A stretch of DNA of 64,000 bases from Streptomyces mesophilus. Its GTDB lineage: Bacteria > Actinomycetota > Actinomycetes > Streptomycetales > Streptomycetaceae. Made by a program: the position numbers and the translations under genes. The stretch lies in assembly GCF_011044995.1 (NCBI RefSeq), contig NZ_JAAKZW010000012.1:1-64000 (forward strand). The letters are read 5' to 3'. Shown in pieces: positions 52,459 to 64,000 of the stretch. The notes beneath the pieces are model-generated. The model was not told the origin of the DNA and searched no databases. It saw only the letters and a program-made list of their open reading frames with translations. Positions within the stretch are counted from its first letter, which is position 1. Each line of letters opens with the position of its first letter.

Positions 52459-53409
52459 ATGGCCGGGAACAGCCAGCGCAGGAACCGTCGCACCAGCAAC
52501 AAGAAGGGTGCGACGGTCGGCAGCGGTGGCAACCGGCGTCGCGGCCTCGAGGGCAGGGGCCCCACGCCGCCCGCGGAGATGCGCAAGAAGCACAAGAAGA
52601 ACCGCATCGCCAACGCCAAGGCCAAGCAGGCCGCCCGCAAGCCCGTCGCCCGGCGCGGCGGCAAGGGGCAGTCGGAGATGGTCGTGGGGCGCAACCCGGT
52701 GTACGAGGCGCTGCGCGACGGAGTGCCGGCGACGATGCTGTACGTGCAGCAGTTCATCGACAACGACGAGCGGGTGCGTGACGCGCTCCACCTCGCGCAG
52801 CAGCGCGGCGGCATCCACCTGATGGAGGCGCCGAAGCCCGAGCTCGACCGGATGACCAACGGGCTCAACCACCAGGGCCTGGTGCTCCAGGTCCCGCCGT
52901 ACGAGTACGCGCACCCCGAGGACCTGGCCGCCGCGGCCTTCGACGTGGGCGAGGAGCCGCTGATCGTCGCGCTCGACGGCATCACCGACCCGCGCAACCT
53001 CGGTGCGGTCGTCCGTTCCGTCGCCGCGTTCGGCGGGCACGGCGTGGTTGTACCCGAGCGCCGTGCGGCCGGTATGACGGCCGGCGCGTGGAAGACCTCG
53101 GCCGGTGCCGCGGCCCGTACGCCCGTGGCCCGTGCCTCGAACCTGACGCGCGCCCTTGAGGCGTACCAGAAGGCGGGCCTGACGATCGTGGGTCTCGCGG
53201 CCGACGGTGAGCACAAGGTCGGTGACCTGGAGGCCCTCGACGGCCCGGTCGTGATCGTGGTCGGCAGCGAGGGCAAGGGCCTGTCCCGCCTGGTCGGCGA
53301 GACCTGCGACTACCTCGTGCGCATCCCGATGCCCGGCGGCGCGGAGTCCCTGAACGCCGGTGTGGCGGCGGGCGTCGTGCTGTACGAGGCGGCTCGGCGC
53401 AGGAGCTGA
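52459..53409 (+). CDS. rlmB: 23S rRNA (guanosine-2'-O-)-methyltransferase RlmB
   Basis: A 316-residue SpoU/TrmH-family methyltransferase with a long Arg/Lys-rich N-terminal extension (~70 residues), a substrate-binding domain and a trefoil-knot SAM domain ([61 protein letters not shown]). Modifies G2251-equivalent in 23S rRNA. AGGTAGG precedes the ATG. Confidence 0.92.
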
Positions 53410-53422
53410 GCCCTTCGCGCGG

Positions 53423-53686
53423 TTACGGGGCCGCCATCGCGGGCGACTCCGTGACCGCAAGGACGTCCACCATGCGGTCGAGCCGTTTGCGGGCCCGCGG
53501 GGCGTCGGCCGGCGCGAGCACGATCTCGGCGGTGGCGCGGGCGTCCTCGGACACCCGGTAGGTCAGCTCGCTCACCGGCACGGAGCGCAGGGTCGTGACG
53601 ACCCGGCCGAGGCCCTCGCGGGTGTGGCGGAGGGTCACGGTGAGGCGGGAGGCCGGGTCCTGGGGTGACAGTTCCTGTGGCGTCAT
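53423..53686 (-). CDS. Small ACT-domain-like protein
   Basis: An 87-residue protein whose pattern (LTVTLRHTREGLGRVVTTLRSVPVSELTYRVSE...TAEIVLAPADAPRARKRLDRMVDVLAVTE) resembles ACT domains of the acetolactate-synthase small-subunit/IlvM type. No catalytic partner is adjacent. GAGGAAGC precedes ATG 53686. It lies downstream of a short leader ORF and a T-tailed terminator hairpin, suggesting attenuation. The ACT assignment is from pattern only. Confidence 0.65.
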   Translation of the reverse strand: MTPQELSPQDPASRLTVTLRHTREGLGRVVTTLRSVPVSELTYRVSEDARATAEIVLAPADAPRARKRLDRMVDVLAVTESPAMAAP

Positions 53687-54094: not shown

Positions 54095-57000
54095 ATGACA
54101 CGACGCCTGGGCATCGACGACCTGTACGCCATCGCGCTCCCGGAGCAGCCCGCACTCTCCCCGGACGGCACCCGTGTGGTGTACGTCCTGCGCACCGCGG
54201 AGCGTGAACACGACCGGGATCACCGGGAGTTGTGGACGGTGCCGGCCGGCACCGGTCCGGCGCGGCGGCTGACCCGCGGTCCGGCGGACACCGCGCCCGC
54301 CTGGTCCCCGGACGGGCGGTGGCTCGCGTTCCTGCGCGGCGGGGACGGGCCGGGGCAGGTGTGGCTGCTTCCGGCCGGCGGCGGGGAGCCCGAGCCGGTG
54401 ACGGGGCTGCCGCTGGGCGCGGGGGCGCCGGTGTGGAGCCCGGACGGGAGCGCGCTCGCGTTCACGGCGCCGGTGGGGCCCTCGTACGAAGCGGCCCCTG
54501 TCGTCACGGACCGGCTCGGCTACAAGGCGGACGGCCAGGGCCTGTTGGGGGCGGTACGCAACCAGCTGCACGTCCTCGACCTGGGCACCCGCACCGTCCG
54601 GCAGCTCACCCACGGCGACTGGGACGTGCGCGCTCCCGCCTGGTCGCCGGACTCGCGCACGCTCGCCTTCACTTCGGCGTACGGCGACGATGCGGATCTG
54701 ACCCTGCGCAGTGCGGCGTACGTGGTGGACGCGCAGCACCCGGCAGCCGCACCGCGTCTCGTGGGCAGCGGCGAGGGGCAGGCGCACACCGTCACCTGGA
54801 CCGCCGACGGGAGTGCCCTCCTGGTCGTCGGCCGCGGGGACACCCGGATCGGGCACGCGGGCCTGCTGCGGGTCCCGCTCGACGGCGGCCCGGCGGACGA
54901 CCTCACCGTCGCGCTCGACCGCAACGTGATGCCCGGCGGCCCCGGTTATCCGGGTGCGGTGCCCCAAGTCACGGGCGACAGCGTGCTGTTCTGCGTACGC
55001 GACCGGGGGTGCACCCACCTGTACGACCTCGACGCACGCGGGGAGGCGCGGCCGCTCATGGCGGGTGCGGGGCAGGTGGTGTCCGGGCTCTCGGCCGCCG
55101 GATCCACCGCCGCGCTCGTCCTCGCGACACCCGTCTCGTACGGCGAGATCGTCACGGTCGACCTGGCGACCGGACGCACCCGGGTCCTCACCACGCACGG
55201 CGAGAGCCTCGCGGATGTGGAGCTTTTCGCGCCCGAGGAACGGGAGTTCACGGTCTCGGACGGCACCATCGTGCACGGCTGGCTGCTGCGCGATCCGGCC
55301 CGTATCGGCCCCGGACCGCTGCTGCTCGACATCCACGGCGGTCCGCACAACGCGTGGAACGCCGCCGCCGACTCCATCCACCTCTACCACCAGGAACTCG
55401 TCGCCCGCGGCTGGTCGGTGCTGCTGCTCAACCCGCGGGGCAGCGACGGCTACGGCGAGGCGTTCTTCACCGCCGCCGTCGGCGCCTGGGGGAGGGCCGA
55501 CGCCCAGGACCTCCTCGAACCGCTCGACGTGCTGGTCGCCGAGGGCGTCGCCGACCCGCGGCGGCTCGCGGTCGCCGGGTACAGCTACGGCGGCTATATG
55601 GCCTGCTATCTGACCGGCCGCGACGACCGGTTCGCCGCCGCCGTCGCCGGCGGGGTGGTCAGCGATCTGACCAGCATGTGCGGCACCAGCGACGAGGCCC
55701 GTGCGCTGGGGGTCGCCGAACTGGGCGGACCGCCGTGGCAGCACCGTACGCACTACGCCGAACTCTCCCCGTACGCAAGGGTGGAGCACGTCCGCACCCC
55801 CACCCTCGTCGTGCACGGAGCCGACGACGAGCTCTGCCCGGCCGGGCAGGCCGAGCAGTGGTTCACCGCGCTGCGTGAACGCGGCGTGCCCACAAGGCTC
55901 GTGCTCTACCCGGGCGGCTCGCACCTGTTCCTGCTCGACGGGCCGCCCTCGCACCGCACCGACCTGGGCCGCCGCATCGTGGACTGGGTGGAGGAGCACG
56001 CCGCCGGGCGGCGCCCGCCCCTGGACACCGCGCACTGGCAGCGCAGGCTCGGCGAACTGGCTGCTCGGCACCGGGTGCCGGGTGCGGTCCTTGGCATCTC
56101 GCGCGGCGGACAACTCGCCCTCGCCGCCCACGGCGTGCTCAACAAGGACACCGGCGTCGAGGCCACCGAGGACTCGCTCTTCCAGATCGGCTCGATCACC
56201 AAGGTGTGGACCGCCACCCTGGTGATGCAGCTCGCGGACGAGGGGCTCATCGACCTCGACGCGCCCCTCGTCGACGTACTCCCGGAGCTTCGGCTCTCCG
56301 ACCCGCAGGTCACGCAGAAGGTGACGATGCGGCACCTGCTCACCCACACCAGCGGGATCGACGGCGATGTGTTCACCGACACCGGGCGCGGCGACGACTG
56401 CCTGGAGCGGTACGCGGACCGGCTCGACGAGGCGGCGCAGAACCACCCGCTCGGCGCGACCTTCTCGTACTGCAACTCCGGCTATGTGCTCGCGGGCCGC
56501 GTCATCGAGAAGCTCACCGGCATGAGCTGGGACCAGGCCCTGCGCGAGCGGCTGTGCGCCCCGCTGGGTCTGGACCGTACCGTCACCCTGCCCGAGGAGG
56601 CGTTGCGCTTCCGTGCCGCGATGGGGCATGACGCGGGCGGCGGCGGAGAGCCGCGTACGGTGCCGGTCTGGGGCCTCGCCCGTTCCGCGGGACCCGCGGG
56701 GCTGATCACCGCAACGGCCGCCGACGTCCTGGCCTTTGCCCGGATGCACTTGGCCGGCGGCACCGCTCCCGACGGCACGCGGGTGCTGTCCGAGGGCGCC
56801 GCGCACACGATGACCCAGGAGCAGGTGAAGCTGCCGGACGCGCACACGCTCGGCGACTCCTGGGGGCTCGGCTGGATCCGCTTCGGCTGGGACGGCCACC
56901 GGCTGATCGGCCATGACGGCAACACTCTCGGCCAGTCGGCGTTCCTGCGGGTGCTGCCGGAGCAGGATCTCGCGGTCACGCTGCTCACCAACGGCGGGGG

Positions 57001-57382
57001 TGCGCACGATCTGTATCTGGAGCTGTTCCGGGAGATCTTCGCCGAGCTGGCCGGGATCGAGATGCCCATCCCCCTCGCGCCGCCGTCCACGCCGGTCGAG
57101 GTGGACCTGAGCGCACACGTCGGCTGTTACGAGCGGGCGGGTGCGCGCATCGAGATCCTGGACGACGCACAAGGGCCCCGGCTGCGGATGACGGTGACCG
57201 GGCCGCTCGCCGCCCTCGTGCCCGAACCGGTCGAGGAGTTCGACCTGGTGCCGGTCACGGACGAGGTGTTCCTGATCCGGCGCCCGGGCTCCGCTGCCTG
57301 GACACCGGTGACCTTCTACAGCCTGCCGACCGGCGAGCGCTATGTGCACTTCGGCGTTCGCGCGACCCCGAAGGTGTCCTGA
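54095..57382 (+). CDS. Fusion of prolyl-oligopeptidase (S9) and class C beta-lactamase-type serine hydrolase
   Basis: A 1095-residue two-enzyme protein. Residues ~1-640: S9 peptidase with a WD40/TolB-type propeller (repeated SPDG motifs) and alpha/beta-hydrolase domain; nucleophile Ser497 in GYSYGGYM, Asp in VHGADDELC and His in PGGSHLF. Residues ~650-1000: beta-lactamase/DD-peptidase fold with Ser700-I-T-Lys703 and Tyr792-C-N; then a lipocalin-like C-terminal domain. No signal peptide, so cytoplasmic. S9 enzymes remove acyl-amino acids or dipeptides; the C-terminal fold is shared by D-aminopeptidases and esterases. GGGGAG precedes ATG 54095. It leads the M20/GNAT/racemase operon with a 1-base gap. 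Confidence 0.88.
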   Translation: MTRRLGIDDLYAIALPEQPALSPDGTRVVYVLRTAEREHDRDHRELWTVPAGTGPARRLTRGPADTAPAWSPDGRWLAFLRGGDGPGQVWLLPAGGGEPEPVTGLPLGAGAPVWSPDGSALAFTAPVGPSYEAAPVVTDRLGYKADGQGLLGAVRNQLHVLDLGTRTVRQLTHGDWDVRAPAWSPDSRTLAFTSAYGDDADLTLRSAAYVVDAQHPAAAPRLVGSGEGQAHTVTWTADGSALLVVGRGDTRIGHAGLLRVPLDGGPADDLTVALDRNVMPGGPGYPGAVPQVTGDSVLFCVRDRGCTHLYDLDARGEARPLMAGAGQVVSGLSAAGSTAALVLATPVSYGEIVTVDLATGRTRVLTTHGESLADVELFAPEEREFTVSDGTIVHGWLLRDPARIGPGPLLLDIHGGPHNAWNAAADSIHLYHQELVARGWSVLLLNPRGSDGYGEAFFTAAVGAWGRADAQDLLEPLDVLVAEGVADPRRLAVAGYSYGGYMACYLTGRDDRFAAAVAGGVVSDLTSMCGTSDEARALGVAELGGPPWQHRTHYAELSPYARVEHVRTPTLVVHGADDELCPAGQAEQWFTALRERGVPTRLVLYPGGSHLFLLDGPPSHRTDLGRRIVDWVEEHAAGRRPPLDTAHWQRRLGELAARHRVPGAVLGISRGGQLALAAHGVLNKDTGVEATEDSLFQIGSITKVWTATLVMQLADEGLIDLDAPLVDVLPELRLSDPQVTQKVTMRHLLTHTSGIDGDVFTDTGRGDDCLERYADRLDEAAQNHPLGATFSYCNSGYVLAGRVIEKLTGMSWDQALRERLCAPLGLDRTVTLPEEALRFRAAMGHDAGGGGEPRTVPVWGLARSAGPAGLITATAADVLAFARMHLAGGTAPDGTRVLSEGAAHTMTQEQVKLPDAHTLGDSWGLGWIRFGWDGHRLIGHDGNTLGQSAFLRVLPEQDLAVTLLTNGGGAHDLYLELFREIFAELAGIEMPIPLAPPSTPVEVDLSAHVGCYERAGARIEILDDAQGPRLRMTVTGPLAALVPEPVEEFDLVPVTDEVFLIRRPGSAAWTPVTFYSLPTGERYVHFGVRATPKVS

Positions 57383-57383
57383 C

Positions 57384-58559
57384 GTGGACCTGCTGCAAGA
57401 TGACCCCACGCTGGTCGACCGGTTCCGGGCCGCGCTGCCCGCGCTGCTCGCCGATATCGAGCACTTGGTGACCTGCGAGTCCCCATCGACCGATCTCGCG
57501 GCGGTGGCGCGCTCCGCCGAGGTGGTGGCCGCCATGGGGGCGGACCGCCTCGGCCAGGAGCCCGAGCGGATCGTCCTGGACGGCCGCACCCACCTGCGCT
57601 GGCGCCTCGGCGGCGGTCCGCGGCGGGTGCTGATCCTGGGCCATCACGACACGGTGTGGCCCCAAGGCACCCTCGCCCGGCTCCCGTTCGGGGTGCGGGA
57701 CGGGGTGCTGCGCGGGCCCGGCTGCTTCGACATGAAGACGGGCCTGGTGATGGCCTTCCACGCGCTGGCCGCACTCGGCACCCCGGACGGGGTGACCCTC
57801 CTGGTCACCGGCGACGAGGAACTCGGCTCACCGTCGTCCAGGGAACTCATCGAGTCCGAGGCGGCGGGCTGCGCCGCGGCGTTCGTCCTCGAAGCGTCCG
57901 CGGACGGCGGGGCGTTGAAGACCGAACGCAAAGGCGTCTCGCGCTACGAGGTGGTGCTGCGCGGGAAGGCGGCGCACGCCGGGCTGGAGCCCGAGCGCGG
58001 GGTGAACGCCGCCGTGGAGGCCGCGCACCAGATCCTCGCGGTCGCCGCCCTCGGCGATCCCGCCGCGGGTACCACCGTGACCCCGACCCTGCTGGCCGCC
58101 GGTACCAGCACCAACACCGTGCCCGCGGAGGGCAGGTTCGCCGTCGACGTCCGCGTACGCAACGCGGCGGAACAGGAGCGGGTCGACCTGGCGCTCAAGG
58201 CGCTCGGCCCCCGGCTACCGGGTGCGGCGATCGAGGTGACGGGCGGCCCCAACCGGCCGCCCCTGGACGCCTCCGCATCGGCCACGCTCTACCGCCGCGC
58301 GGTGCTCCTTGCCGGGCAGCTCGGCATCGGCGCACCGGGCTCCGCCGCGGTGGGCGGCGCCTCCGACGGCAACTTCACCGCCGGGGCCGGCGTTCCCACC
58401 CTCGACGGACTCGGCGCGGTGGGCGGGGGCGCGCACGCCGATGACGAGCACGTGGTCGTGGCCGAACTCCCCAGTCGTACGGCCTTGTTCACCGCACTCG
58501 TGGCCGACGTGCTCGCGGAGCGGAACCCACGGGCGGCGGACGACGGGATCGGCCGATGA
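57384..58559 (+). CDS. M20-family metallopeptidase/deacylase
   Basis: A 391-residue M20 enzyme (carboxypeptidase G2/ArgE-like). Metal ligands and catalytic residues: GHHDTVWP, GPGCFDMKTG, TGDEELGSPSS (catalytic Glu pair), VLEASADGG and AHADDEHV. A dimerisation lid begins at GKAAHAGLEPERGVNAA. In the D- to L-amino-acid pathway an M20 enzyme removes the N-acyl group from the L-product. GTG 57384 is one base after the fusion-gene stop; the 3' end overlaps the GNAT gene (ATGA). Confidence 0.9.
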   Translation: MDLLQDDPTLVDRFRAALPALLADIEHLVTCESPSTDLAAVARSAEVVAAMGADRLGQEPERIVLDGRTHLRWRLGGGPRRVLILGHHDTVWPQGTLARLPFGVRDGVLRGPGCFDMKTGLVMAFHALAALGTPDGVTLLVTGDEELGSPSSRELIESEAAGCAAAFVLEASADGGALKTERKGVSRYEVVLRGKAAHAGLEPERGVNAAVEAAHQILAVAALGDPAAGTTVTPTLLAAGTSTNTVPAEGRFAVDVRVRNAAEQERVDLALKALGPRLPGAAIEVTGGPNRPPLDASASATLYRRAVLLAGQLGIGAPGSAAVGGASDGNFTAGAGVPTLDGLGAVGGGAHADDEHVVVAELPSRTALFTALVADVLAERNPRAADDGIGR

Positions 58560-59458
58560 ACGAGATCCCCCTGACCGTGCCCGTACAGCAGACCGCCCTG
58601 TACGCCGACGCGCAGGACGCGGCCGACAGCGCCGCCCACGCGGCCGGCTGCCAGGTGCGGCCGATCAGCGCCCTGCCCGAACTGGACGCCGTCTGCGCCC
58701 TCTTCGAGGGCATCTGGAAACCCGGCGGCGAGAACGGCCTGGTGACGCCCGAGCTGCTGCGCGCGATGGACAAGGCCGGCAGTTACGTCGCGGGCGCCTT
58801 CGACGGTGAACACCTGGTGGGCGCCTGCATCGGCTTCTTCGGACCGCCGCCCGACGGCGCGCTGCACAGCCATATCGCCGGCGTCTCGGCCCGGATGCGC
58901 GGCCGCAGCGTCGGCTTCGCCCTCAAGACGCACCAGCGCGCCTGGACACTGCAGCGCGGGGCCACCCAGGTCTCCTGGACCTTCGACCCGCTGGTGCGCC
59001 GCAACGCCTACTTCAACCTGGGCAAGCTGGCCGGGCGCCCCACGCAGTACCTGCCCAACTTCTACGGGCGGATGGACGACGGCATCAACGGCGCCGACGA
59101 CACCGACCGGCTCCTGGTCACCTGGCCGCTCACCGCCCCCGAGGTCGCCGCGGCCTGCCACGGCCGACGACCCGGCGAGGCCGTGGCCCGCCCCGGTGAC
59201 CCACCGGCCGAACCGGCCGCCGTCGCCTTGGGTGTCACCCCCTCCGGCCGGCCCCGCGCCCAAGCCGTCACCGGACCACGCGCCCGGGTCGCCGTGCCCG
59301 AGGACATCGAGGCCCTGCGCCGCGCCGACCCGGCGGCAGCCGCGTCCTGGCGCACGGCCGTACGCGACGTCCTCGGCGGACTGCTCGCCGACGGCTGGCA
59401 GGTGACGGGCTTCGAACGGTCCGGCTGGTATCTCCTCGTACGAAAGGACGCACTGTGA
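58556..59458 (+). CDS. COG3375-type GNAT acyltransferase
   Basis: A 300-residue GNAT protein. VGACIGFFGPPPDGALHSHIAGVSARMRGRSVGFALKTHQRAWTLQRG holds the acyl-CoA loop, and WTFDPLVRRNAYFNLGKLAG is the hallmark of the COG3375 group that travels with N-succinylamino-acid racemases. Expected role: N-acylate (often succinylate) D-amino acids. Overlaps M20 (ATGA) and the racemase gene (GTGA), so all three are coupled. Confidence 0.87.
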   Translation: MNEIPLTVPVQQTALYADAQDAADSAAHAAGCQVRPISALPELDAVCALFEGIWKPGGENGLVTPELLRAMDKAGSYVAGAFDGEHLVGACIGFFGPPPDGALHSHIAGVSARMRGRSVGFALKTHQRAWTLQRGATQVSWTFDPLVRRNAYFNLGKLAGRPTQYLPNFYGRMDDGINGADDTDRLLVTWPLTAPEVAAACHGRRPGEAVARPGDPPAEPAAVALGVTPSGRPRAQAVTGPRARVAVPEDIEALRRADPAAAASWRTAVRDVLGGLLADGWQVTGFERSGWYLLVRKDAL

Positions 59459-60561
59459 AGCTCACCGGGGTCGAACTCCGCGAGATCCGGCTGCCGTTGG
59501 TGGCGCCCTTCCGCACCTCCTTCGGCACGCTCACCGAGCGCTCGGCCCTGCTTCTGCGGGCCGTCGGCACCGAGGCCGAAGGGTGGGGCGAGTGCGTGGC
59601 GATGGAGGGTCCGCTCTACTCCTCGGAGTACGTGGCGGGCTGTGCCGACGTGCTGCGCCGCTTCCTGATCCCGGCGCTCGCGGGCCGCGCACAGCTCGAC
59701 GCGGCGGCCGTCGCCCCCGCGCTCGCCCCCTACCTCGGCCACCGGATGGCGAAGGCCGCCCTGGAGACGGCCGTCCTGGACGCCGATCTGCGCACCCAAG
59801 GGGTGTCCCTGGCAAGGGAGTTGGGCGCCGTGCACGACCGGGTGCCCTGCGGGGTGTCCGTCGGCATCATGGACTCCGTACCGCAGCTGCTCGAAGCCGT
59901 CGCCGGCTATCTCGACGCCGGATACGTACGCATCAAGCTGAAGATCGAGCCCGGCTGGGACGTCGAGCCCGTACGCGCGGTACGCGAGCACTTCGGCGAC
60001 GAGCTGCTGCTCCAGGCCGACGCCAACACCGCCTACACGCTCGCCGACGCCCGGCACTTGGCGCGCCTCGACCCGTACGGACTGCTCCTGATCGAGCAGC
60101 CCCTCGACGAGGAGGACCTGCTCGGCCACGCCGCACTCGCGAAGGCCATCACCACCCCCGTATGCCTCGACGAATCCATCACCTCGGCCCGCGCCGCCGC
60201 CGCGGCGATCACCCTGGGCGCCTGCTCCATCGTGAACATCAAGCCCGGACGGGTCGGCGGCTACCTCGAAGCGCGCCGGATCCACGACGTGTGCAGCGCG
60301 CACGGGGTGCCCGTGTGGTGCGGCGGGATGCTGGAGACCGGGCTCGGACGTGCGGCCAACGTCGCGCTCGCCGCGCTGCCCGGCTTCACGCTGCCGGGCG
60401 ACACCTCCGCCTCCGACCGCTACTACCGCACCGACATCACCGAGCCCTTCGTCCTGGACGACGGACACCTGCCGGTCCCCACCGGGCCGGGCCTCGGAGT
60501 GGTCCCGGTCCCCGAGGCCTTGGAGGAAGTGACGGTCACGACCGAGTGGATCTCTCTGTGA
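59455..60561 (+). CDS. N-acyl(succinyl)amino-acid racemase, MenC family
   Basis: A 368-residue enolase-superfamily enzyme. With GTG 59455 as residue 1, the catalytic and metal residues fall at the positions known for Amycolatopsis N-acylamino-acid racemase: Lys161-x-Lys163, Asp189, Glu214, Asp239 and Lys263. It could by sequence also be o-succinylbenzoate synthase, but no men genes are present, Streptomyces makes menaquinone by the futalosine route, and the GNAT and M20 neighbours are those of NSAR pathways. It would racemise N-acyl D- and L-amino acids. Confidence 0.88.
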   Translation: MKLTGVELREIRLPLVAPFRTSFGTLTERSALLLRAVGTEAEGWGECVAMEGPLYSSEYVAGCADVLRRFLIPALAGRAQLDAAAVAPALAPYLGHRMAKAALETAVLDADLRTQGVSLARELGAVHDRVPCGVSVGIMDSVPQLLEAVAGYLDAGYVRIKLKIEPGWDVEPVRAVREHFGDELLLQADANTAYTLADARHLARLDPYGLLLIEQPLDEEDLLGHAALAKAITTPVCLDESITSARAAAAAITLGACSIVNIKPGRVGGYLEARRIHDVCSAHGVPVWCGGMLETGLGRAANVALAALPGFTLPGDTSASDRYYRTDITEPFVLDDGHLPVPTGPGLGVVPVPEALEEVTVTTEWISL

Positions 60562-60605
60562 CAGCCCCTTGTCTGCACGGGAGGAGGCGGCACACAATCC
60601 GGTCC

Positions 60606-60669
60606 ATGAATCCGGTCCATACGGGCGCGACACGGCCATGAATGCGGTCCATACGGCCGCGACACGGCC
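60606..60669 (+). repeat. Two 32-bp tandem repeats ahead of the PucR-type gene
   Basis: Units 60606-60637 and 60638-60669 differ at two positions; each begins with ATGAAT. The next base is the ATG of the regulator gene. A third partial copy (CCGGTCCATGAATCC) overlaps the start. Confidence 0.85.
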
Positions 60670-62328
60670 ATGACCAGGGCTTCCGACGGCGGTCCGGGGC
60701 CGCGAGCCGGCCTCGGGCGCGTCCTCGAGGACCTCGGCACCACCCTCCTCGACCTCGTCTGCGGCGACCCGGCCGGCGCCGGCGCGATCGGCGGGGTGGT
60801 CATCCACGACCCGCTGGACGAACCGGTGCTGCCCCGGCGGGCGCTGGTGCTCGGCATCGGCGTGCGCACGGCCGACGACACCGTACGGCTGCTCACCGAG
60901 CTCGGCGCGGCAGGCGCCGTCGCCCTGGTCGTCCGCGCGCCCGCCCCCGCCGACCCGGCCGTGACCGCGGCCGCCGAACGGTCGGGCGTGGCGCTGCTCG
61001 CCCTCACCCGGGGCGCGTCCTGGGCCCAACTGGCCGCCATGCTCCGCTCGCTGCTCGCCGAGGACGACGTCGGCGACGTGGGCCCGCAGACCCTGGGCGG
61101 CATCCCCTCGGGCGATCTGTTCGCCGTGGCCAACGCGGTCGCGGCGCTCCTGGACGCCCCCGTCACCATCGAGGACCGCAGCTCACGTGTCCTGGCGTTC
61201 TCCGGGCGCCAGGACGAGGCCGACCCCTCCCGCGTGGAGACGGTCCTGGGCCGCCAAGTGCCCGAGCGCTTCACCCGCTTCCTCGAGGACCAGGGTGTCT
61301 TCCGCGCGCTCTACCGCGGCGACCAGCCGGTGCACGTGGAGCCCCCGGCGACCGAGGAGTTCCACATCCCGCGCGTCGCCATCGCCGTACGGGCCGGGGA
61401 CGAACTCCTCGGGTCCATCTGGGCCGCCGTGCGCACCCCGCTCAACGCCCAGCGCACCGAGGCGCTGCACGACGCGGCCAAACTCGTGGCCCTGCACCTG
61501 CTGCGGCAGCGGGCGGGCGCCGATGTGGAGCGGCGGCTGCGCGCCGACCTGGTCGCCACCGTGCTCGAAGGCGGGCCGCGCGCCACCGAGGCCCTGGCCC
61601 GGCTCGGCCTCGCCGACCACGGCGGTGTCGTGCTCGCCCTGACCGCACCGGACCCGCCCGAGGCAGCCGGCTCCACCGCCGTGCACGCACGGCACGCGGC
61701 CGAACGGCAGCGTCTCGCCGACGCGTTCGCGATGCACCTGAGCGCGGTGCACCCGCGGGCCGCCACCGGGCTCATCGGCGATGTGGCGTACGGGATCCTG
61801 CCCGTGCCCTGTGATGCCGAGGAGCGGGCGGTACGCGTCGGCTCCGACTTCCTCAGCCGCGTCGGCGACCGGCTTCGCCCGCTGATCGGCATCGGGGCCT
61901 GCGCCGAGGACGGCGGCGGCCTGGCGCGCTCCCGCGAAGGAGCCGACCGCGCCCTGCGCGTGCTGCGCGCCGGCGGCGGGCCGCGCCGACTGGCCCGGAT
62001 CGCGGATGTGCACATCGAGGCGCTGCTGCTCGACCTCGCCGACCTCGCCGCCGAACGCGGCGACCGGGCCGACGGACCGCTCGCCCGCCTCCTCGCTTAC
62101 GACCGCGGCCATGACGCGCACCTGGTCGACACGCTGCGGGCCTGGCTCAACGCCTTCGGCGACATACCGGCGGCAGCGGCGGCCATGTACGTCCACCAGA
62201 ACACCTTCCGCTACCGGCTGCGGCGCGTCGCCGAAGTGGCCCGGGCCGACCTGACCGACCCCGAGTCACGCTTCGCGCTGATGCTCCAACTGCGCCTGCT
62301 CCAAAGGCCCGACACCGCGGCCGGCTGA
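60670..62328 (+). CDS. PucR-family transcriptional regulator
   Basis: A 552-residue regulator with an N-terminal PucR/GAF-like sensory part (~1-290), a GGDEF-like middle (~380-450) and a C-terminal PucR HTH (LVDTLRAWLNAFGDIPAAAAAMYVHQNTFRYRLRRVAEV). Such proteins activate catabolic genes for purines, amino acids or amines. It is last in the racemase cassette and probably controls it. ATG 60670 has no RBS; the upstream tandem repeat may hold the promoter. Confidence 0.87.
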   Translation: MTRASDGGPGPRAGLGRVLEDLGTTLLDLVCGDPAGAGAIGGVVIHDPLDEPVLPRRALVLGIGVRTADDTVRLLTELGAAGAVALVVRAPAPADPAVTAAAERSGVALLALTRGASWAQLAAMLRSLLAEDDVGDVGPQTLGGIPSGDLFAVANAVAALLDAPVTIEDRSSRVLAFSGRQDEADPSRVETVLGRQVPERFTRFLEDQGVFRALYRGDQPVHVEPPATEEFHIPRVAIAVRAGDELLGSIWAAVRTPLNAQRTEALHDAAKLVALHLLRQRAGADVERRLRADLVATVLEGGPRATEALARLGLADHGGVVLALTAPDPPEAAGSTAVHARHAAERQRLADAFAMHLSAVHPRAATGLIGDVAYGILPVPCDAEERAVRVGSDFLSRVGDRLRPLIGIGACAEDGGGLARSREGADRALRVLRAGGGPRRLARIADVHIEALLLDLADLAAERGDRADGPLARLLAYDRGHDAHLVDTLRAWLNAFGDIPAAAAAMYVHQNTFRYRLRRVAEVARADLTDPESRFALMLQLRLLQRPDTAAG

Positions 62329-62431: not shown

Positions 62432-64000
62432 ATGAGTGTGGACACCAGAACACCCGGTACGGGATTCGACGACGCTCCCGCGCTGAGCATGGTGAAGGTC
62501 CCGTGCGACCCGGCGCAGGTCATCGTCAATCACGCAAGCTTCCGTGTGCAGCTCCCTGGCGCGAAACTGCCCCGATCCCCGCGCATCGCCGCCGGCACCT
62601 CTGTCGCCGGCCTCATCCCCGCGGCCGCCGGCGCCTCCGTCGTGCGGCGCCGGGCGCCCGTCGTGTGGAGCGGCAAGAGCGAGCCCGGCGACCTCGCGGC
62701 CACCGGACTGCTGCAGGCGGCACGCAGGGCCGAAGTGGCGCAGGGGGCCGAGGAGTTCGGCGACGGAGCGGCCACCCAGGTCATCCCGCGGATCCAGGTC
62801 GAGGAACTCGACCGGCTCGACGGCCTCGACCCCGACGCCACCGTCGAGACACCGCAGGTGGTCGGACCGCGCGACCCCGAGGGCGACGAGACCCGGCTCA
62901 TCCCGGCGGTCTCCGCCTTCGACAGCGCCTACGACGGGTTCTTCCGCTCCGAGGGCGAAGGGCCCGCGCAGCCGCAATCCCCGTACGAGGACGACGAGTT
63001 CGACGAGGACGACGAGGCCGGTGCGCGCCGCCACGGAGCCGACTCGGTCCGGCACGCGTACTACCCCGGGCGCCGGCTCAACCTCGGCGTCGTCCTCCTC
63101 CCGCTCCGTATCTTCCTCGGCTTCATCTCCATCTACGCGGGCCTGGGCAAGCTCTGCGATCCCGTCTACTTCGACGGCGGCGAGCGCGGCTCGATGGTCA
63201 AGTGGCTGAACTCGCTGCACCCTTGGCCGCTCGCCGAACCGCTGCGGGACTTCGCGCTCCAGCACCCGGTCGGCGCCGGACTCGTCATCGCCTTCCTTCA
63301 GGTGATCGTCGGCGTCCTGACGGTGCTCGGCCTGTGGCAGCGGGTCGCGGCGGTGATCGGTGCGCTGCTCTCCGCGGCGCTGCTCGTCACCGTCAGCTGG
63401 AAGACCGTCCCCGCGTACGACGCGCCGGACATCATCTACCTGGCCGCCTGGTCGCCGCTGATCATCGCGGGCGCCCCGGTGTACTCGGTGGACGGACGGC
63501 TCGCGAGCGAGGCCTGGCGCACGCTCGGACCGCGCTCCGAACTCTGGGAGCTGCGCCGCCGGGTGCTGCGCCGCGGGCTGCTCATCGGCACGTTCGTCGT
63601 GGGCGCCACGCTGCTGCTCGGCGCCCTGCTCGGCGGTGCGGTGCGCAGCGCGCAGACCGTCACGGTGCCGGGTCCCGGCCAGCCGCCGCGCAACGAACTG
63701 CCCGGCTCGCCGCTGCCCAGCCAGTCCCGTGAGGGGCGCGACGCGAAGGACAGCCCGTCGGCCTCCAAGTCGCCGACGGAGGGCGCCACTTCGGCGCCGC
63801 CGTCCGACTCGGAGTCCACGCCCGAGTCGGTGCGCGAGCCCGGCTCGGCGGGCGCGGAGCAGCCCAGCGAGACGGCCGGCTCGGGCCAGGCCCCGCCCCC
63901 GCAGGCGGAGCCCGAGCCGCCGGCAACCAGCGGCGGCCCCACGTCCGGCGGCTCGGACGGCTCCGGCGGCTCGTCCGGCGAGCCCGGCGGCTCGGGCGGC
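62432..64000 (+). CDS. DoxX-family membrane protein (cut by window end)
   Basis: The frame from ATG 62432 stays open for 523 codons to the window edge, so the gene is partial at its 3' end. Residues ~1-200: low-complexity acidic and Pro-rich cytoplasmic part. Residues ~215-400: DoxX domain with four helices (NLGVVLLPLRIFLGFISIYAGLGKL; GAGLVIAFLQVIVGVLTVLGLW; VIGALLSAALLVTVSW; IIYLAAWSPLIIAGAP) plus a fifth near residue 390. A long Ser/Gly/Pro-rich extracytoplasmic tail follows. DoxX proteins are linked to redox/sulfur handling at the membrane; in mycobacteria one pairs with SodA and SseA. Confidence 0.85.
   Translation, partial: MSVDTRTPGTGFDDAPALSMVKVPCDPAQVIVNHASFRVQLPGAKLPRSPRIAAGTSVAGLIPAAAGASVVRRRAPVVWSGKSEPGDLAATGLLQAARRAEVAQGAEEFGDGAATQVIPRIQVEELDRLDGLDPDATVETPQVVGPRDPEGDETRLIPAVSAFDSAYDGFFRSEGEGPAQPQSPYEDDEFDEDDEAGARRHGADSVRHAYYPGRRLNLGVVLLPLRIFLGFISIYAGLGKLCDPVYFDGGERGSMVKWLNSLHPWPLAEPLRDFALQHPVGAGLVIAFLQVIVGVLTVLGLWQRVAAVIGALLSAALLVTVSWKTVPAYDAPDIIYLAAWSPLIIAGAPVYSVDGRLASEAWRTLGPRSELWELRRRVLRRGLLIGTFVVGATLLLGALLGGAVRSAQTVTVPGPGQPPRNELPGSPLPSQSREGRDAKDSPSASKSPTEGATSAPPSDSESTPESVREPGSAGAEQPSETAGSGQAPPPQAEPEPPATSGGPTSGGSDGSGGSSGEPGGSGG

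Follow-up and report, generated by a model that had tools for sequence, protein, structure and literature searches.

The stretch of DNA analysed here, which we call the window, comprises the 64,000 nucleotides at positions 1 to 64,000 of contig NZ_JAAKZW010000012.1 from Streptomyces mesophilus. This contig is 74 kb long and the source genome comprises 8.99 Mb in 505 contigs. Near the end of the window, at 54095-62328, five open reading frames (ORFs) on the same strand form a cassette around a putative N-succinylamino-acid racemase (NSAR). The five genes are as follows.

54095-57382, + strand: S9+S12 fusion, 1095 aa; Pfam PD40, Peptidase_S9 and Beta-lactamase
57384-58559, + strand: M20 deacylase of carboxypeptidase-G2 type, proposed N-succinyl-L-amino-acid amidohydrolase, 391 aa; GTG start, 1-nt gap upstream; Pfam Peptidase_M20 and M20_dimer
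58556-59458, + strand: GNAT N-acyltransferase (residues ~31-196, by predicted fold) with a ~100-residue C-terminal extension, proposed D-amino-acid N-succinyltransferase, 300 aa; 4-nt overlap upstream
59455-60561, + strand: NSAR, enolase superfamily, 368 aa; GTG start, 4-nt overlap upstream; Pfam MR_MLE_N and MR_MLE_C
60670-62328, + strand: PucR-type transcriptional regulator, probable cassette regulator, 552 aa; 108-nt gap upstream; Pfam PucR HTH_30 and GGDEF_2

A first-pass annotation of this DNA had described five same-strand genes of which the first four are coupled, with a PucR-type regulator as the fifth. The ORF coordinates confirm the coupling, with one 1-nt gap and two 4-nt overlaps, and the HTH_30 match supports the regulator. 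A codon-usage gene caller returns identical genes and no competitor, but it was trained on these five and the two flanking genes and hence is not independent. The 1-nt gap between the fusion and M20 is also present in the related loci L039 and L040. We suggest that the block is probably a catabolic cassette for D-amino-acid-containing peptides, in which import and cytosolic hydrolysis would be followed by irreversible D-to-L conversion.

The nearest solved chain to the racemase is the Amycolatopsis NSAR 1sja (3e-182 over residues 2-366), with variants of 1sja next. The N-acylamino acid racemase group of 1r0m and its relatives, from Deinococcus, matches at about 2.5e-98, and the L-Ala-D/L-Glu epimerase 1jpm at 1e-31 only, so a dipeptide epimerase was rejected on similarity. 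Residues K163, D189, E214, D239 and K263 are invariant in 17 aligned rows including the window, down to 40% identity, which agrees with the earlier description of a MenC-family enzyme with its racemase residues in place. K163 and K263 are presumably the catalytic lysines and the other three the acidic metal ligands. R266, which we take to be the second-shell specificity residue tied to NSAR activity, is invariant in the same rows. One result speaks for a different function: the NCBIfam model TIGR01928 labels the protein o-succinylbenzoate synthase (OSBS) above its cut-off (310 vs 201 bits). This model is not known to tell NSAR from OSBS. No MenD is found above cut-off in the source genome (nine weak matches, the best at 60 bits vs 244; MenD was the one Men enzyme searched for besides the racemase itself), and the futalosine enzyme MqnC is present at 463 bits vs a cut-off of 428. 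An OSBS would therefore seem to be without a pathway to serve, and despite TIGR01928 we set this role aside as unlikely. These results thus agree with neither of the two identities, OSBS and dipeptide epimerase, that the first-pass annotation had named as fatal to its proposal, with TIGR01928 standing against this. By its sequence, the window racemase is of the actinobacterial NSAR type, with a predicted racemisation of N-succinyl-amino acids. As a separate observation, it natively carries Tyr323, as 4a6g does, whereas 1sja has Phe there; all 17 aligned homologues share the Tyr. According to PMC7431475, this residue was put into the Amycolatopsis NSAR by engineering (G291D/F323Y type).

At E<=0.001 the third cassette protein falls into neither a Pfam nor an NCBIfam family, and by sequence nothing in the PDB matches it. 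Its best profile match, a designed repeat protein, has a score made up of six matches of ~2 bits each. Weak Pfam matches are seen among 23 homologues, Acetyltransf_1 in 11 and Acetyltransf_6 in 8. An AlphaFold2 model from a 55-row alignment (pLDDT 93.7) places a GNAT fold at residues ~31-196 (Foldseek; VIA-align to Naa10, 6c95_B: Z 15.5, 148 residues aligned at rmsd 1.7). Judged by this model the protein is clearly a GNAT, and the label given earlier from sequence, for which sequence searches gave no support at that threshold, is borne out by the predicted fold. The C-terminal extension (residues about 197-300) is partly conserved among the homologues and has no assigned family. For the M20 protein, the nearest solved relative is carboxypeptidase G2 (CPG2; 1cg2, 4e-37), and the HxD, D, EE, E and H motifs, presumably the metal ligands, align. 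Carboxypeptidase G2 is an L-specific N-acyl amidase, and the likeness would suit an amidase acting to strip the N-acyl group from an L-amino acid.

The fusion protein consists of a beta-propeller and alpha/beta-hydrolase S9 peptidase (residues 1-640), followed by a serine beta-lactamase-fold S12 with a C-terminal part (about 645-1095). In 16 aligned fusions, the S9 triad S497 (GYSYGGY), D578 and H610 and the S12 motifs S700xxK703, Y792xN794 and H940xG942 are all invariant, and both active sites therefore look functional. By both fold and sequence, the S9 half is closest to the S9 carboxypeptidases 8wt1 (Geobacillus stearothermophilus) and 5yzo (Deinococcus radiodurans), at about 31% identity. 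Both genera are also known for NSAR. The structure model of the fusion is only fair (pLDDT 76.7, pTM 0.58), and we read no domain interfaces from it. Nearest to the S12 half are IS11 (7spn), 6ksu, the Pbp-related 2qmi and the PBP cyclase Ulm16 (8fek); further down the list the alkaline D-peptidase 4y7p, the R61 DD-peptidase 1cef, ClbP and a D-amino acid amidase stand among beta-lactamases and carboxylesterases. Several of these solved structures carry names that mark them as D-directed. The S9 half also matches a model for lasso-peptide isopeptidases, at 144 bits and so far under the cut-off of 400. By eye, the N-terminus has no signal-peptide-like stretch, which suggests a cytosolic protein. 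In genomes G019 and G075 the S9 and S12 are separate adjoining genes, so the window protein joins two enzymes that are neighbours elsewhere.

The distribution of these genes was investigated in two surveys of NSAR loci, both annotated by six-frame searches with hidden Markov models. In the same-genus survey NSAR was found at E<=1e-60 at 42 places, spread over 37 of the 121 genomes; 40 of these places were read, leaving out the window's own and that of G097. The GTDB-scan survey, for which the NSAR alignment was the query, used the best 80 of 589 confirmed loci, with about 10 kb around NSAR. Its loci come from genera including Nocardioides, Microbacterium, Kibdelosporangium, Lentzea, Actinomadura, Arthrobacter and Jiangella. 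GNAT is found in 75 of the 80 GTDB-scan loci, always within 2 kb of NSAR; M20 is found in 53 of the 80, PucR in 48, S12 in 34, DppB or DppC in 33 and M19 in 10. S9 occurs in 23, always with S12, the S9 being weak in L129 and partial in L088. The order M20, GNAT, NSAR is seen in 46 loci and the full order S9, S12, M20, GNAT, NSAR in 16, with PucR next in 13. The same-genus loci have GNAT in 36 of 40, M20 in 28, PucR in 23, an amino-acid permease in 12, M19 in 7, S9 with S12 in 5 and M55 with S66 in 2. In the permease loci of this genus, a permease, M20 and a divergent PucR stand where the peptidases would be.

The various peptidases that accompany the GNAT-NSAR core are in our view the strongest argument for the proposed function. 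When S12, M19, M55 and S66 are counted up to 8 kb from NSAR, 37 of 80 GTDB-scan and 15 of 40 same-genus loci have at least one of them. Where M20 lies within 3 kb, such a D-directed peptidase is present in 34 of 53 and 14 of 28 loci, compared with 3 of 27 and 1 of 12 where it does not. The distance from NSAR peaks at 2-4 kb (24 of 39 S12 copies and 6 of 10 M19), which indicates that the peptidases sit at an operon position and are not spread uniformly. In L048-L054 the M19 dipeptidase is immediately upstream of M20, while L073 and L074, from the same genus, combine a Dpp transporter, GNAT, NSAR, an M55 D-aminopeptidase, M20 and an S66 LD-carboxypeptidase in a dpp-ykf-like set where NSAR replaces the dipeptide epimerase. 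The specificity for D-bonds is here assigned to each of these peptidases from its family. On this basis the joining of different D-bond peptidase families to one GNAT-NSAR(-M20) core suggests that the core works on D-amino acids freed from peptides, and the S9+S12 protein is predicted to be one of several interchangeable D-directed peptidases of NSAR cassettes. On the NSAR tree, which excludes L072 (broken, 234 aa) and the duplicates L109 and L137 and has 35 of 115 branches starred, 21 changes are needed for the presence of a D-directed peptidase and 12 for S9+S12 in any arrangement; peptidase partners thus seem to be often swapped or lost. Other hydrolases are also seen. L043 (11141-14680), L044 (3648-7111), L118 and L151 carry both a prolyl-oligopeptidase S9A and an erythromycin-esterase-like domain; in L043 the two are fused, in the other three they are separate, and these genes and an SBP5/Dpp transporter stand opposite the PucR gene. 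A class-A beta-lactamase-like gene is found in or near the NSAR cassette in 7 of the 80 GTDB-scan loci, the loci noted being L045 (10749-11687, PF13354), L098, L100, L101, L105, L117, L123 and L143.

We also asked the reverse question, whether the fusion occurs away from NSAR, in 296 genomes across the class (fusion protein query at E<=1e-150, NSAR at E<=1e-100). NSAR was found in 80 of these genomes. The query matched 30 genomes: the fusion is complete in 25 cases, while S9 stands as a separate gene in 3 and S12 in 7. NSAR lies within 7.5 kb of 24 of the 25 fusions, a count to be read with the caveat that two candidates were scored per genome and fusions distant from NSAR could be missed. In the 25th case, G191, M20 is next and the contig ends inside GNAT, just ahead of the expected place of NSAR. 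All three separate S9 are near NSAR, and three of the seven separate S12 are within 12 kb of it. In the same genus, 7 of 121 genomes have the fusion or a separate S9 at E<=1e-100, and all 7 are NSAR-positive. With the thresholds used, the fusion and the S9 half are therefore nearly exclusive to NSAR cassettes, which does not hold for S12 alone, and the co-occurrence that the first-pass annotation had proposed to examine is found. L212 (7751-9097) and L213 (8007-9344) have an extra separate S12 gene between M20 and GNAT beside the S9+S12 fusion.

The cassette lies between two flanking genes.

52459-53409, + strand: rlmB, SpoU methylase domains, left flank of the insertion site
62489-64000, continuing to 64051 outside the window, + strand: doxX-type gene, Pfam DoxX, right flank of the insertion site

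We matched rlmB in 40 of 41 genomes and read the rlmB region in 14 of the 39 relatives. The doxX start is 0.24-0.62 kb after the rlmB match in 13 of these 14 and 2.7 kb in L209, compared with 9.1 kb in the window. The five cassette proteins have no match in the rlmB regions of the 14. The block is thus an insertion between rlmB and DoxX, as had been suggested earlier. The same regions have no match (tblastn 1e-8, >50 bits) to an 87-aa ORF at 53423-53686 (- strand) between rlmB and the cassette, which has no Pfam match.

The earlier view of the S9/beta-lactamase-fold fusion as operon leader needs to be corrected in part: the fusion stands, by Pfam, whereas in relatives a Dpp-type ATP-binding cassette (ABC) transporter is found ahead of it. 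Among 17 other distinct fusion loci, all have M20 and GNAT, 15 have PucR and 15 have DppB or DppC; the remaining two, L041 (at a contig end) and L141, have only a DppD-type ABC ATPase. In G002, G021 and G032 the rlmB-doxX site is empty and the cassette is found elsewhere, with transporter genes ahead. This suggests that the cassette moved to or was acquired at rlmB-doxX without the transporter, or lost it later. Three ABC ATPase genes on the window contig match the DppD model, without a solute-binding protein (SBP), DppB or DppC as neighbours. The best homologue of DppC-DppD in the source genome is 49% identical, whereas the fusion proteins of the two relatives compared reach 75-76%, so we see no clear transporter orthologue there, though its absence is unproven.

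The proposed route is as follows; its substrates, acyl group, direction, location and regulation are what we infer, next to the gene order, domains, active-site residues, association and insertion observed directly. Peptides would reach the cytosol via the Dpp-type importer coded just upstream in most relatives, and in the window presumably via an unlinked importer. The cytosolic S9+S12 protein would hydrolyse them to free D- and L-amino acids, the S12 half being D-directed and the S9 half acting as an exopeptidase, a proposal made because its nearest folds are S9 carboxypeptidases. The GNAT would acylate the D-amino acid using succinyl-CoA, NSAR would convert the N-succinyl-D to the N-succinyl-L-amino acid, and the CPG2-type M20 might strip succinate from the L form only, so that the equilibrium would be pulled toward the L-amino acid. 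These three steps are modelled on the pathway known from Geobacillus. PucR may turn the cassette on. The D-amino-acid salvage read earlier from the DNA is well supported as an inference, by NSAR identity and gene co-occurrence. A bolder and more tentative suggestion, which may well prove wrong, is that S9+S12 is a dedicated degrader of D-peptides whose two active sites are those of an S9 carboxypeptidase and of an S12 D-peptidase. On this view it arose within NSAR cassettes, would pass its products straight to the D-to-L converter and would be part of a widespread actinobacterial system for eating D-residue peptides such as nonribosomal ones.

Several observations weigh against a peptide-fed D-amino-acid cassette. 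No SBP, DppB or DppC match is found in the 65 window genes or in the rest of the contig. The D-specificity of the S12 half is a matter of distant similarity only, and beta-lactamases and an esterase-type hydrolase are likewise among the Pfam and NCBIfam models that this half matches. S12 alone is not tied to NSAR, with only three of the seven separate copies near it, and is also present in genomes without an NSAR match. None of the four kinds of D-directed peptidase lies within 8 kb in 43 of the 80 GTDB-scan loci, or in 32 of the 58 where 8 kb exists on both sides. An excess of peptidases does speak for the reading, with 10 M19 vs ~0.3 expected and 39 S12 vs ~3 expected in the 1.51 Mb of these loci, but the expected counts are rough: they come from one background genome, the source genome (2 clear M19, a third being weak, and 19 S12 in 8.99 Mb), Pfam models were used there and local models in the loci, and related loci are non-independent.

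Other readings of the catabolic cassette have to be considered. It might serve detoxification: antibiotics that are D-residue peptides, or free D-amino acids that are toxic, would be made by the strain itself or by organisms nearby, and the cassette would disarm them, recycling being a side effect. The S12 relatives include ClbP, Ulm16 and alkaline D-peptidase, which are enzymes of D-residue peptide metabolism, and both the sporadic occurrence of NSAR in the genus and the insertion would suit a niche trait; the lasso-peptide isopeptidase match to the S9 half points the same way, albeit below cut-off. But the importer permease genes in 15 of the 17 other fusion loci would be odd for pure defence, and GNAT, NSAR and M20 together would make the amino acid usable again and not simply block it, and we regard this reading as unlikely. 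It is likewise doubtful whether the peptides are cell-wall stem peptides, recycled as in Bacillus dpp-ykf. DD-peptidases are among the S12 relatives, and the gene sets of L073 and L074 resemble ykfA-D beside dppB-E (PMC2954226). S66 or M55, on the other hand, match in none of the 17 other distinct fusion loci, where dipeptide epimerase and gamma-D-Glu endopeptidase were not searched for, and for the cassette studied here neither family has a match in the last 20 kb. In addition, NSARs of the type found here prefer hydrophobic N-acyl amino acids and not D-Glu or D-Ala.

A reverse route, in which L-amino acids are acylated and racemised and the D form is released, seems very improbable to us. 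NSAR is reversible and, according to PMC7431475, has made a D-amino acid when paired with a D-acylase; the peptidases and the importer nevertheless point to catabolism. The likeness of M20 to the L-specific carboxypeptidase G2 also argues against it. We give almost no credence to the reading of the racemase as the OSBS of menaquinone synthesis with incidental neighbours: besides TIGR01928, the Amycolatopsis homologues are deposited under both NSAR and OSBS names, but a GNAT gene is the neighbour in 75 of 80 GTDB-scan loci, and MenD and MqnC speak against it as described above.

The recovery of D-amino acids from cell walls and nonribosomal peptides has so far been understood in fragments. If the catabolic reading is true, the actinobacterial NSARs employed in biocatalysis would gain a physiological role, the labelling as both NSAR and OSBS would be explained for an organism with no apparent need of an OSBS, and a function would be predicted for an uncharacterised double peptidase found almost only beside NSAR. 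Candidate enzymes that cut D-residue peptides may be of use for questions of peptide drug stability and for finding soil bacteria that degrade D-peptides. The core GNAT-NSAR-M20 chemistry is already known, whereas the peptide-fed actinobacterial form, with importer and near-private double peptidase, seems new; among the papers listed by a literature search in which subscription journals were thinly covered, none describes S9+S12, M19 or a peptide transporter as part of a cassette with NSAR, and novelty is unproven.

A comparison with known systems shows which parts are shared. The S9 carboxypeptidases 8wt1 and 5yzo have about 650-690 residues and no S12 part, whereas the window S9 is fused to S12. 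Compared with the Amycolatopsis NSAR/OSBS (1sja, 4a6g, 7s8w), the window racemase keeps the catalytic positions and differs from 1sja in having Tyr323 in place of Phe. The dpp/ykf system of Bacillus subtilis, as described in PMC2954226, is alike in having a Dpp transporter, peptidases for D-residue bonds and an enolase-superfamily epimerase. Its epimerase acts on a dipeptide (L-Ala-D/L-Glu), while in the cassette the free amino acid would first be N-acylated. The peptidase families also differ from the S9+S12 type, DppA of B. subtilis presumably being an M55. Of the dpp-ykf hallmarks, a Dpp transporter and an LD-carboxypeptidase beside the epimerase are not seen in the window, and gamma-D-Glu endopeptidase and dipeptide epimerase were not searched for. 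The closest parallel is Geobacillus kaustophilus, for which Sakai et al. in 2006 reportedly described a pathway of GNAT, NSAR and M20, with adjacent genes and irreversible D- to L-amino-acid conversion. The same three enzyme kinds are found here in adjacent genes, and in the window they are coupled. PMC7431475 reports that G. kaustophilus NSAR and L-succinylase in whole cells give L-amino acids at >99.9% enantiomeric excess. The cassette GNAT differs from the Geobacillus pathway in its C-terminal extension and in having no curated family. Unlike that pathway, the cassette adds the S9+S12 protein as a putative peptide-hydrolysing front end, the PucR regulator and, in relatives, the Dpp importer.

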